From Chitinophagaceae bacterium (lineage in GTDB: Bacteria; Bacteroidota; Bacteroidia; Chitinophagales; Chitinophagaceae): a stretch of 51,421 nucleotides of DNA. The translations under genes and the position numbers were made by a program. How positions within the stretch are numbered: position 1 is the stretch's first letter; the number at the start of each line of letters is the position of its first letter. Under the pieces are notes generated by a model. It did no database searches, was not told the DNA's origin, and saw only the letters and a list, made by a program, of their open reading frames with translations. The stretch covers positions 1-51,421 of the forward strand of contig JAJTFQ010000011.1 in NCBI GenBank assembly GCA_021299955.1, read 5' to 3'. Below, piece by piece: positions 3,457-48,121 of this stretch.

Positions 3457-3666
3457 ATGGACTTAGATAAGATCGGCGAAACCATCAAAAAAAGGCGTGA
3501 GTTACTTGACCTCCGGCAAGAGGACATGGCCGAACTCTGCGATGTTTCCATAAAGACCATACATGTCATTGAGCAGGGAACCGGCAACCCGGCTTTCAAA
3601 ACCTTAAGAAAAGTGGCTGAATTGGTCGGGCTGGAACTTACTTTACAGATCAAAAAGGTCAGCTAA
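3457..3666 (+). CDS. hipB: XRE-family HTH antitoxin, HipB-like
   Basis: IKKRRELLDLRQEDMAELCDVSIKTIHVIEQGTGNPAFKTLRKVAELVGLEL, a HTH_3 domain preceding HipA-like genes. Confidence 0.85.
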   Translation: MDLDKIGETIKKRRELLDLRQEDMAELCDVSIKTIHVIEQGTGNPAFKTLRKVAELVGLELTLQIKKVS

Positions 3667-4001
3667 TGTTAAAAGCTGGTGTCTATTACAACGGAATGCT
3701 GGCAGGATATCTGGAAAAGCGGAAAGATCCGATAAGCTATCAATTTACTTACACGGAAGAATATTATTCAGATCCCGGCACACCGGCGATCAGCCTGAGT
3801 TTCCCCAAATCGAAGCAGCCATATCGATCATCCGTTCTGTTTCCATTTTTTTGTGGACTGCTTGCAGAGGGTATCAATAAAGATATTCAGTGCATGCTGC
3901 TCAAGATCGATGAAGCGGACGATTTTACGAGACTGATAAAGACCGCCGGAGAAGACACCATAGGAGCCATAACGGTCAAAGAAGAAACTACAGAAAGATG
4001 A
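3666..4001 (+). CDS. HipA N-terminal subdomain protein (HipS-like)
   Basis: AGVYYNGMLAGYLEKR..YQFTYTEEYYSDPGTPAISLSFP; 111 aa; start overlaps the previous stop (TAATG). Confidence 0.82.
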   Translation: MLKAGVYYNGMLAGYLEKRKDPISYQFTYTEEYYSDPGTPAISLSFPKSKQPYRSSVLFPFFCGLLAEGINKDIQCMLLKIDEADDFTRLIKTAGEDTIGAITVKEETTER

Positions 4002-4969
4002 AATGTGCCGGATGCTATAAGGAAGGTGCAGATGGATATTGCAGCGGCTGCCGGAGAAAACTTTTTGACGGTAAAAAGGTAAGTCATGTGCTGTCATTTG
4101 ATCAGCCAACGGCCGATAACCTTGTAGAGTACCATGAAAAAACAAAGCGACTATCCATATCCGGTGTGCAGCTGAAATATTCTCTGCGCCTGGAAAAGAA
4201 AGAACTGCAGCTGACCGTAAAGGGAGGACAGTACATACTGAAACCTGTTCCGCCCGGACTCATTGCATTCCATGATCAGGCTCCGGAAAATGAACACCTG
4301 ACCATGCAAATAGCTAAACAGGTATTTAAGATCCCGGTGGCAGAAAATGCTTTGATCTATTTCAGGGATGGTTCTCCGGCTTATATCACCCGGCGTTTTG
4401 ATGTGAATCCCGATGGAACCAAACAACTGCAGGAAGATTTCGCACAACTGATCGGAAAGTCCAGACAGCAGGATGGAGAAAATTATAAATATGAAGGATC
4501 ATATGAAGATATCGGCCAGTTCATTCAGTCAAAGGTAAGTGCTCCGATCCCTGTGTTGGAATCATTTTTCAAACAGGTCCTGTTCAATTATATTTTTTCA
4601 AATGGGGATGCACATCTGAAGAACTTTTCATTGATACAGACTGAATTTGGAGATCATGTGCTATCCAGGGCCTACGACTTGATGTGTACCGTATTACACG
4701 CCCCCAGTGAAAGCGATACTGCCCTTGACCTATATGAGGGCGACTTCGAAAGTAGCCGCTATCGACAATTTGGATGTTACGGCAGACCAAATTTTGAAGA
4801 ACTGGCGCTCCGTTTAGGACTATTACCTTCAAGAAGCAGCAGGATCATCAACGAACTTTTGTCCAAAAAGGATGAGGTCGAGAAAATGATCGAGCATTCC
4901 TTTCTGGATCTCTCAACCCAAGAACAATACCTCCATTTTTATCAGGATAAGATTAGAAGATTTACGTGA
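3998..4969 (+). CDS. HipA kinase-domain toxin (HipT-like) with N-terminal CxxC/CxxC motif
   Basis: MKCAGCYKEGADGYCSGC..., RLSISGVQLKYSL Gly-rich loop, FNYIFSNGDAHLKNFSL catalytic segment, YDLMCT; ATGA overlap with the upstream ORF. Confidence 0.85.
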   Translation: MKCAGCYKEGADGYCSGCRRKLFDGKKVSHVLSFDQPTADNLVEYHEKTKRLSISGVQLKYSLRLEKKELQLTVKGGQYILKPVPPGLIAFHDQAPENEHLTMQIAKQVFKIPVAENALIYFRDGSPAYITRRFDVNPDGTKQLQEDFAQLIGKSRQQDGENYKYEGSYEDIGQFIQSKVSAPIPVLESFFKQVLFNYIFSNGDAHLKNFSLIQTEFGDHVLSRAYDLMCTVLHAPSESDTALDLYEGDFESSRYRQFGCYGRPNFEELALRLGLLPSRSSRIINELLSKKDEVEKMIEHSFLDLSTQEQYLHFYQDKIRRFT

Positions 4970-9182: not shown

Positions 9183-9260
9183 GGCCTGAGATCAGCCGTG
9201 GAAATCCTTACGTGCCGGCATATTTGGAAAAGCCACCACTGTATCGGTATGTTTGACTTG

Positions 9261-9404
9261 TAGTCCCGACAGGAATCCCTGCCTGCCGGCAGGCAGGGAA
9301 CCTGACCTGATTTTTCGCAATGTAGTCCCGACAGGAATCCCTGCCTGCCGGCAGGCAGGCCTGCCTGCCGGCAGGCAGGGAACCTGACCTAATTTTTCGC
9401 AATG
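9261..9404 (-). repeat. Two tandem copies of a unit derived from the tRNA-Arg 3' part, each with inserted 20-bp palindrome(s)
   Basis: Unit 1 9261-9322 (62 bp), unit 2 9323-9404 (82 bp = 62 + 20). Both begin tagtcccgacaggaatc; palindrome cctgcctgccggcaggcagg at 9278-9297, 9340-9359 and 9360-9379; both continue gaacctgacctRatttttcgcaatg. Confidence 0.93.
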
Positions 9405-9476
9405 TAGTCCCGACAGGAATCGAACCTGTATCTAAAGTTTAGGAAACTTCTATTCTATCCATTGAACTACGGGACC
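9405..9476 (-). tRNA. tRNA-Arg (anticodon CCT)
   Basis: Sense: GGTCCCGTAGTTCAATGGATAGAATAGAAGTTTCCTAAACTTTAGATACAGGTTCGATTCCTGTCGGGACTA. Acceptor GGTCCCG/CGGGACT, anticodon loop TTCCTAA, T-arm ACAGGTTCGATTCCTGT. Confidence 0.88.
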
Positions 9477-9709
9477 ATTGATTTCAGAAATTCTTTTCCA
9501 ACCCCTGATTTCAAATATTTTTCCCTGACTCTTGCCTTACTCCAATCTTCAAAAATCTCCTTTCTGAACAGTTTCCAGGGCTTTAATCCCTTTGTATATC
9601 TGTTTTTACCATTGTTATGATCCTTAAGACGCCGTTCAGCATCCAAGGCCATACCAACGTATATTTCACCACTACACTCGCTCACAATCGCATACACCTC
9701 AACCACCAC
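9467..9709 (-). CDS. GIY-YIG nuclease family protein (80 aa)
   Basis: VYAIVSECSGEIYVGMALDAERRLKDHNNGKNRYTKGLKPWKLF..ARVREKYLKSGVGKEFLKSMVP; GIY-YIG-type VYAI..IYVG, R and E positions. Stop codon TAG lies within the tRNA 5' end. Confidence 0.85.
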   Translation of the reverse strand: MVVEVYAIVSECSGEIYVGMALDAERRLKDHNNGKNRYTKGLKPWKLFRKEIFEDWSKARVREKYLKSGVGKEFLKSMVP

Positions 9710-9721
9710 TCACCTTTTTAT

Positions 9722-9769
9722 TTCCCGACCGGAATCCCTGCCTGCCGGCAGGCATTTAACTACGGGACC
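9722..9769 (-). pseudogene. tRNA-Arg relic collapsed around a truncated palindrome
   Basis: Sense: GGTCCCGTAGTTAAATG / CCTGCCGGCAGGCAGG / GATTCCGGTCGGGA. Acceptor 5' strand and T-loop-to-acceptor 3' strand match the intact tRNA; the middle is replaced by 9737-9754 palindrome sequence. Confidence 0.8.
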
Positions 9770-9921
9770 CAAACCACCAAATGTAAGATCTGACAACAAC
9801 GATGACCGGGAATCTTACAAATGTTTAGCGCGCTGCAAAGATAGCACATTCAGGAAAAATTGATGACTTTTATGCAGCAATGGGCTTTCATCTTATGCAC
9901 AATATGATTAAATTTAGGCCC

Positions 9922-47560: not shown

Positions 47561-48121
47561 ATGATTAAGAAAATGACCGGGGAGGTCTGGAAATCCTTTC
47601 AGTTCCCCGGATGGAAGGAGCTTCGAAAGAAGTACGCCGTCTCCAGCAACGGGAGGATCGCCAGCTACACCGAAGATCTGCACGCCGATGGAAAACTCCT
47701 CAATGGTTCACTGACAACGGGCTACCGAAGCCTGAACCTGCATCGTGCGAAAAGTAAAAGCACGCTGTATGTCCACCGGGAAGTTGCCCGGCATTTTCAC
47801 AAAAAAACCTCTCCAAAACAGAAGTTCGTCATTCACCTCAACCACGACAAGCTGGACAATCGTGCCCGCAACCTGAAATGGGCCACGCAGCAGGAAGTCG
47901 CTGAACACCAGCAGCAGTCACCCGCGAAACTAGCCTACAAAGAAGTGCAGGCTTCCCGTACAAAGGGTTTGAAACTCAGCCTTTCTCAGGTGCGCACCAT
48001 CAAAAAGTCACTGGGTGACCCGAAGCGGAAACTGACCTACCGACAACTCGCTGATAAGTATGGTGTAAGTGAAATGACACTCTACCGGATCCGCAGTGGT
48101 GAAAACTGGGGTGCCGTCTGA
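47561..48121 (+). CDS. NUMOD4/HNH homing-endonuclease-like protein with C-terminal HTH
   Basis: EVWKSFQFPGWKELRKKYAVSSNGRIASY (NUMOD4-like), VHREVARHFHKK..FVIHLNHDKLDNRARNLKWATQQEVAEH (HNH_3-like), HTH RQLADKYGVSEMTLYRIRSGENW. Confidence 0.8.
   Translation: MIKKMTGEVWKSFQFPGWKELRKKYAVSSNGRIASYTEDLHADGKLLNGSLTTGYRSLNLHRAKSKSTLYVHREVARHFHKKTSPKQKFVIHLNHDKLDNRARNLKWATQQEVAEHQQQSPAKLAYKEVQASRTKGLKLSLSQVRTIKKSLGDPKRKLTYRQLADKYGVSEMTLYRIRSGENWGAV

Follow-up and report, generated by a model that had tools for sequence, protein, structure and literature searches.

The window analysed here, a stretch of 51,421 nucleotides from a Chitinophagaceae bacterium (contig JAJTFQ010000011.1), carries an intact tRNA-Arg(CCT) gene next to partial copies of its 3′ portion that are split by a short palindrome. 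The question raised by this locus is how a discrete palindrome comes to sit inside defective tRNA copies next to the working gene, and whether the two belong to a common element.

Anatomy of the tRNA-Arg(CCT) locus

Three exact copies of the palindrome CCTGCCTGCCGGCAGGCAGG interrupt two partial tRNA-Arg(CCT) 3′ copies, in both cases exactly at sense TTC^GATT and with junctions that are otherwise unaltered (Table 1), which confirms the coordinates and junctions given in a first-pass annotation made from the sequence alone. Both copies retain TGTAGTCCCGACAGGAATC^GAACCTG, corresponding to sense positions about 49–73 of the tRNA. The spacing of the units, 62 bp and then 82 bp, is explained by a head-to-tail palindrome dimer in the longer one (82 = 62 + 20 bp), and here too the earlier description holds. 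Its account of the locus was nevertheless incomplete: the two palindromic 3′ copies stand, but a GIY-YIG nuclease ORF, whose last codons overlap the 5′ end of the intact tRNA, and a fourth, palindrome-interrupted tRNA copy upstream were missed. This degenerate copy consists of tRNA 1–17, 16 nt of palindrome and tRNA 56–70, and its palindrome site (9737–9756) has two mismatches to CCTGCCTGCCGGCAGGCAGG. Read along the minus strand, a broken tRNA with palindrome comes first, then the GIY-YIG gene, the intact tRNA and finally the two palindrome-bearing 3′ pieces. What the first-pass annotation chiefly omitted is the GIY-YIG cassette with its specificity for a tRNA isotype.

Shuffled windows gave no match to CCTGCCTGCCGGCAGGCAGG, and a search of the whole host assembly (219 contigs totalling 3.0 Mb, 76% complete) found only these three exact copies, all inside the tRNA copies of the window. 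A group I intron was rejected, as the functional tRNA is uninterrupted and the only Rfam matches above the gathering score are to tRNA, with no intron; sub-threshold Rfam matches to miRNAs and riboswitches are chance matches to the hairpin. Elsewhere, the window encodes a stand-alone, homing-endonuclease-like NUMOD4-HNH protein (47561–48121, plus strand; PF07463, PF13392) and a split HipA (3666–4969, plus strand), in which an ORF for the HipA N-terminal domain is followed by a HipA_C ORF.

Table 1. Features of the tRNA-Arg(CCT) locus, in window coordinates
Feature	Position	Strand	Basis
20-bp palindrome at TTC^GATT in 3′ copy 2, exact	9278–9297	.	
Downstream partial tRNA-Arg 3′ copy 2, 62-bp unit	9259–9320	-	
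20-bp palindrome CCTGCCTGCCGGCAGGCAGG, tandem pair member 1, at TTC^GATT, exact	9340–9359	.	
20-bp palindrome, tandem pair member 2, exact	9360–9379	.	
Downstream partial tRNA-Arg 3′ copy 1, 82-bp unit	9321–9403	-	
Intact tRNA-Arg(CCT)	9404–9476	-	ARAGORN; Rfam RF00005, 68 bits
GIY-YIG nuclease ORF, 80 aa, GTG start	9467–9709	-	Pfam PF01541, E 9.4e-14
Degenerate tRNA-Arg copy, upstream of GIY-YIG ORF	about 9718–9770	-	Sequence comparison

GIY-YIG genes beside intact and partial tRNA genes

The arrangement seen in the window recurs widely. Among 80 loci from named GTDB genomes, picked by their GIY-YIG protein alone, an intact tRNA lies within 400 bp of the GIY-YIG gene in 69 and partial copies of that same tRNA are found in 63, where we estimate chance adjacency at about 1–2% for roughly 45 tRNAs per genome. 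These loci belong to Bacteroidota, to many CPR lineages and to at least six further phyla (Omnitrophota, Margulisbacteria, Elusimicrobiota, Nitrospirota, Ignavibacteriota, Chlorobiota and Acidobacteriota). Within the genus of the window, 26 of 42 genomes have a GIY-YIG match, and at most loci the ORF adjoins a tRNA with partial copies of it around. Two layouts occur, copy-GIY-tRNA (the window type) and tRNA-terminator-GIY-copy-terminator. An assembly artefact is unlikely, given that the same layout recurs in independent genomes and in named isolates, among them Thermoflavifilum thermophilum, whose genome is a single 2.85-Mb contig. At tRNA-Met, arrays hold as many as four partial copies together with three GIY-YIG genes.

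Presence and absence at one orthologous target are observed for tRNA-Leu(CAG), located 46 bp downstream of a conserved gene. The tRNA is plain and the site empty in genome G008, while the site is filled in its sister G033, which shares 95% identity in the upstream protein, with the order tRNA(1–14)-palindrome-tRNA(15–26)-GIY-YIG-tRNA(1–85) followed by the same downstream flank as in G008, a gain of ~310 bp. The site is also empty in G006, G014, G002 and G011 and also filled in G004 and G030. The copy-GIY-tRNA cassette can be written as palindrome + tRNA 15–26 + GIY-YIG + tRNA 1–14 inserted at 14^15, which places the hairpin at the left-hand junction, the position expected for a cleavage site. 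G004 has a second hairpin, CCTGTCTGCCGACAGGCAGG, one base 3′ of the palindrome, which is absent from G030 and G033; orthologous loci of congeners thus differ by one exact 20-bp second hairpin, in support of the earlier view of a discrete module. An integrase-type tRNA island was rejected, since the ~310-bp cassette holds the GIY-YIG ORF only and no site-specific recombinase.

The history of the Arg(CCT) locus can be followed in congeners. G010 carries an orthologous locus, with a GIY-YIG protein 77% identical to that of the window. Its upstream tRNA copy is full length and holds hairpins at both 17^18 and 55^56, while downstream CCTGCCTGACGGCAGGCAGG occupies TTC^GATT, as in the window, in each of two 3′ pieces. 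The degenerate copy upstream of the window's nuclease gene reads as a copy of this two-hairpin kind, apparently collapsed by deletion between its hairpins (compare locus L092). G064 and G065 have no GIY-YIG gene between tRNA-Arg(CCT) and the 3′ piece that follows it, and this piece carries a palindrome or its remnant at the same position. G023 (C91, C235) and G024 (C39, C27) each have a pair of tRNA-Arg(CCT) genes, a plain one and one that adjoins GIY-YIG (diverged in G023), so that the cassette-linked tRNA may be an extra, imported copy. Partial tRNA-Arg(CCT) copies (22–73 and similar) also lie 1.4–7 kb from an intact copy in G017:C61, G031:C311, G020:C81 and G034:C29, which suggests larger elements integrated at the same tRNA.

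The PF01541 match, together with conservation of the catalytic columns Y, Y, R, H and E in the GIY-YIG alignment, indicates a known homing-endonuclease catalytic fold with an intact active site. The enzyme is under purifying selection (dN/dS about 0.1–0.2 against orthologs, a simple NG86 count with dS near saturation), and comprises just the ~80-aa catalytic domain; no DNA-binding module could be recognised. In a tree built from 108 GIY-YIG domains, a short domain for which many forks are poorly supported, tRNA isotype requires 11 changes in the named set (minimum possible 8) against 29 after shuffling, with none of 200 shuffles as low, while the label Bacteroidota/CPR/other is unclustered (16 changes against 18 shuffled). 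GIY-YIG lineages thus track the tRNA isotype and not the phylum, a statement that concerns clustering and not branching order; an enzyme lineage keeps its target while changing hosts.

The 19–20-bp hairpin unit

The view that the palindrome is a discrete module is upheld by 66 interruptions of tRNA copies without loss of a tRNA base, of which 62 measure either 20 bp (50 cases) or 19 bp (12 cases). A stem of at least 6 bp is found in 61 of the 66, compared with 1% of random 20-mers. The sequence of the hairpin varies while its form persists; by our parsing, the variants consist of a four-base prefix and a hairpin with a 6-bp stem, with TTTA-prefixed forms in CPR. Further support comes from palindrome sites searched regardless of tRNAs and scored by whether their flanks rejoin as tRNA: within the genus the flanks of 27 of the 37 unique sites do so gaplessly, and overall those of 32 of 98 sites rejoin, compared with 5 of 1960 random junctions.

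Recurrence of the palindrome in environmental Bacteroidota and CPR, which the first-pass annotation had suggested, was confirmed in 27 of 399 Bacteroidota genomes and 26 of 78 CPR relatives. Its idea of a single defined insertion site was not supported. Position varies with tRNA isotype and layout (Arg 21–23 and 55, Leu 14–15 and 64–70, Phe 20) and recurs by isotype across phyla, TTC^GATT being one of several positions used across tRNAs; a strong target motif at the insertion point was not found, with only a weak A/C^G/T preference. Many copies also lie outside tRNA sequence; in other Bacteroidota families and in CPR, this holds for the majority of exact palindromes. In CPR relatives 5 of 26 sites lie in sequence that rejoins as tRNA, and this proportion, with the overall one above, means that the palindrome also lives elsewhere than in tRNA copies.

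Cassettes of an Asp, Met, Ala, Lys and Asn group show no exact interruption; instead, other palindromes (TCCCGA..TCGGGA or TCCGCCGCGGCGGA) take the place of the anticodon arm, and such replacement is seen at loci L102, L105, L111, L122, L125, L132 and L133. The palindrome was also observed in 3′ pieces of tRNA-Pro, -Phe, -Leu and -Ala beside the intact tRNA (L059, L017, L022, L065, L055 and L005), and at these six loci no GIY-YIG gene was seen within the stretch of sequence examined. When folded as RNA, the hairpin lengthens the T stem of the 3′ pieces.

A proposed homing-style mechanism, its alternatives and its meaning

Our results are consistent with a minimal mobile cassette, specific for one tRNA isotype, of which the window locus is the tRNA-Arg(CCT) example; it would spread homing-style, with the hairpin in a protective role, a reading that we hold with moderate confidence. 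In its favour are the adjacency of GIY-YIG genes to their own tRNAs, the empty and filled tRNA-Leu(CAG) sites, the isotype tracking, the exact 19–20-bp inserts at isotype-consistent positions, the purifying selection and the occurrence in isolates. The cassette comprises a stand-alone GIY-YIG gene together with the tRNA sequence needed to restore a functional tRNA when it inserts. The putative nuclease would nick or cut a cassette-less tRNA gene, and repair would copy the cassette into the cut gene, as with a free-standing homing endonuclease. Insertion leaves a partial tRNA copy adjoining the nuclease gene, interrupted by discrete 19–20-bp GC hairpins, and the hairpin, by breaking the site in this leftover copy, may block both re-cleavage and recombination with the intact tRNA.

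Several observations speak against this scheme. The leftover copy in the window is interrupted, yet the intact tRNA-Arg(CCT) is 100% identical to that of several congeners without a GIY-YIG match; it is therefore unlikely to be a cleavage-resistant allele, an escape from self-cutting is not evident, and something besides the tRNA sequence would have to spare it. The reduction of the enzyme to its catalytic domain, in which a DNA-binding module cannot be recognised, also speaks against the scheme. Palindromes interrupt tRNA-Phe, -Pro and -Ala copies without a GIY-YIG gene in reach, as also in G064 and G065, and occur away from tRNAs, so that hairpin and cassette are partly separate. The anticodon-arm replacements described above are a further departure from exact interruption.

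Alternatively, the hairpin may be the substrate: a structure-selective GIY-YIG enzyme of the SLX1 or ANKLE1 kind would cut the extruded palindrome in the leftover copy and thereby start mobilisation, with the tRNA pieces acting as mere homology arms that choose the isotype. Some GIY-YIG nucleases do cut branched or cruciform DNA (SLX1, PMC8287910; ANKLE1, PMC10287932), the protein considered here has no more than a catalytic domain, the form of the hairpin is kept as its sequence changes, and homology arms alone would yield isotype tracking. However, hairpins are widespread without a GIY-YIG neighbour and some cassettes were detected without a perfect palindrome in the copy, and we consider this alternative unlikely. 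We give a similarly low probability to the palindrome being a mini-element in its own right, dispersed by insertion at any site, found in tRNA copies since these are dispensable, and linked to GIY-YIG genes only indirectly. Its abundance outside tRNA sequence in other Bacteroidota families and CPR would fit, as would Thermoflavifilum thermophilum (G072, L070–L073), where exact palindromes sit at GCGAGG^AATC in another, dispersed repeat family, GTCATTCCGAG...GAATC, with similar insertions in GTCATTGCGAGG repeats of G113 (L074–L076); against this stand the excess of genus sites lying exactly in tRNA-like sequence over random junctions, the confinement of all three host-assembly copies to tRNA copies and the recurrence of positions by isotype across phyla.

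Ordinary local duplication of tRNA genes, with hairpins inactivating the spare copies and the GIY-YIG gene being a repair gene present by chance, could account for tandem arrays such as those of tRNA-Met with four partial copies or the 62/82-bp units of the window, but is very improbable in view of the adjacency in 69 of 80 loci, the isotype-specific GIY-YIG clades spanning phyla and the presence and absence at orthologous tRNA-Leu. A REP-like unit (tetranucleotide plus hairpin) moved by a Y1 transposase is most improbable: although the variants parse as a 4-nt prefix with a 6-bp-stem hairpin and 24 of the 42 genomes of the genus have Y1 transposases, the hairpins at the 30 scanned Y1 loci are other sequences, never the palindrome, and palindrome-bearing genomes such as G011, G012, G023, G024 and G026 have no Y1 match.

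The homing-style cassette that we favour resembles the free-standing GIY-YIG homing endonucleases of phages in its stand-alone gene beside a conserved target, its presence or absence at orthologous sites and its horizontal spread with a fixed target. It differs in that the target is a tRNA gene regenerated intact, the protein is a bare ~80-aa domain and the leftover copy is interrupted by a hairpin. Two tRNA-junction patterns gave no match in viral_contigs when searched for phage carriage. A short repeated hairpin, possibly preceded by 4 nt, is also a feature of REP/RAYT systems, but in this genus no linkage to a Y1 transposase was seen at the 30 Y1 loci scanned. Rickettsia palindromic elements are palindromic inserts in bacterial genes, of unknown mobility; they are much longer, lie mostly in protein genes and are confined to Rickettsiales. 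As with tRNA-targeting integrative elements such as prophages and ICEs (PMC9897764), one intact tRNA is restored and a fragment is left at the other end, but the present cassette is about 310 bp, has no integrase and its fragments carry hairpin inserts. Mitochondrial GC palindromes (Neurospora palindromes, yeast GC clusters and repetitive hairpin elements) are likewise short, GC-rich and dispersed, with mobility that is unknown or disputed, and those of Neurospora flank tRNA genes (Yin 1981, as cited in PMC2800124). In contrast, the palindromes described here are bacterial, lie inside tRNA copies at fixed positions and are coupled to a nuclease cassette.

Our search, which covered the open literature, found no description of the cassette or the palindrome, and tRNA-gene neighbours are unmentioned in a phylogenomic study of GIY-YIG proteins (PMC1564403). 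The parts are of known kinds (a GIY-YIG nuclease, tRNA-targeted insertion and mobile palindromes), whereas their combination and its breadth appear new. A bolder proposal, which we think improbable as a whole, is that the ~300-bp isotype-specific GIY-YIG cassette of at least eight bacterial phyla constitutes an undescribed class of mobile element that inserts in a tRNA gene, rebuilds it and adds a defined 19–20-bp hairpin de novo to the leftover copy, at the point of cleavage, and would thus be the source of the palindromes widespread in Bacteroidota and CPR.

If the homing-style reading is right, broken tRNA copies and short GC palindromes by tiny GIY-YIG genes would form one family of mobile elements, possibly among the smallest that encode a protein, whose tRNA target stays fixed from phylum to phylum, CPR included. 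The cassette offers an entry to the question of how 20-bp mobile palindromes arise and insert without target duplication, and tRNA fragments together with LPAGR-type peptides in metagenome annotations may mark this element.
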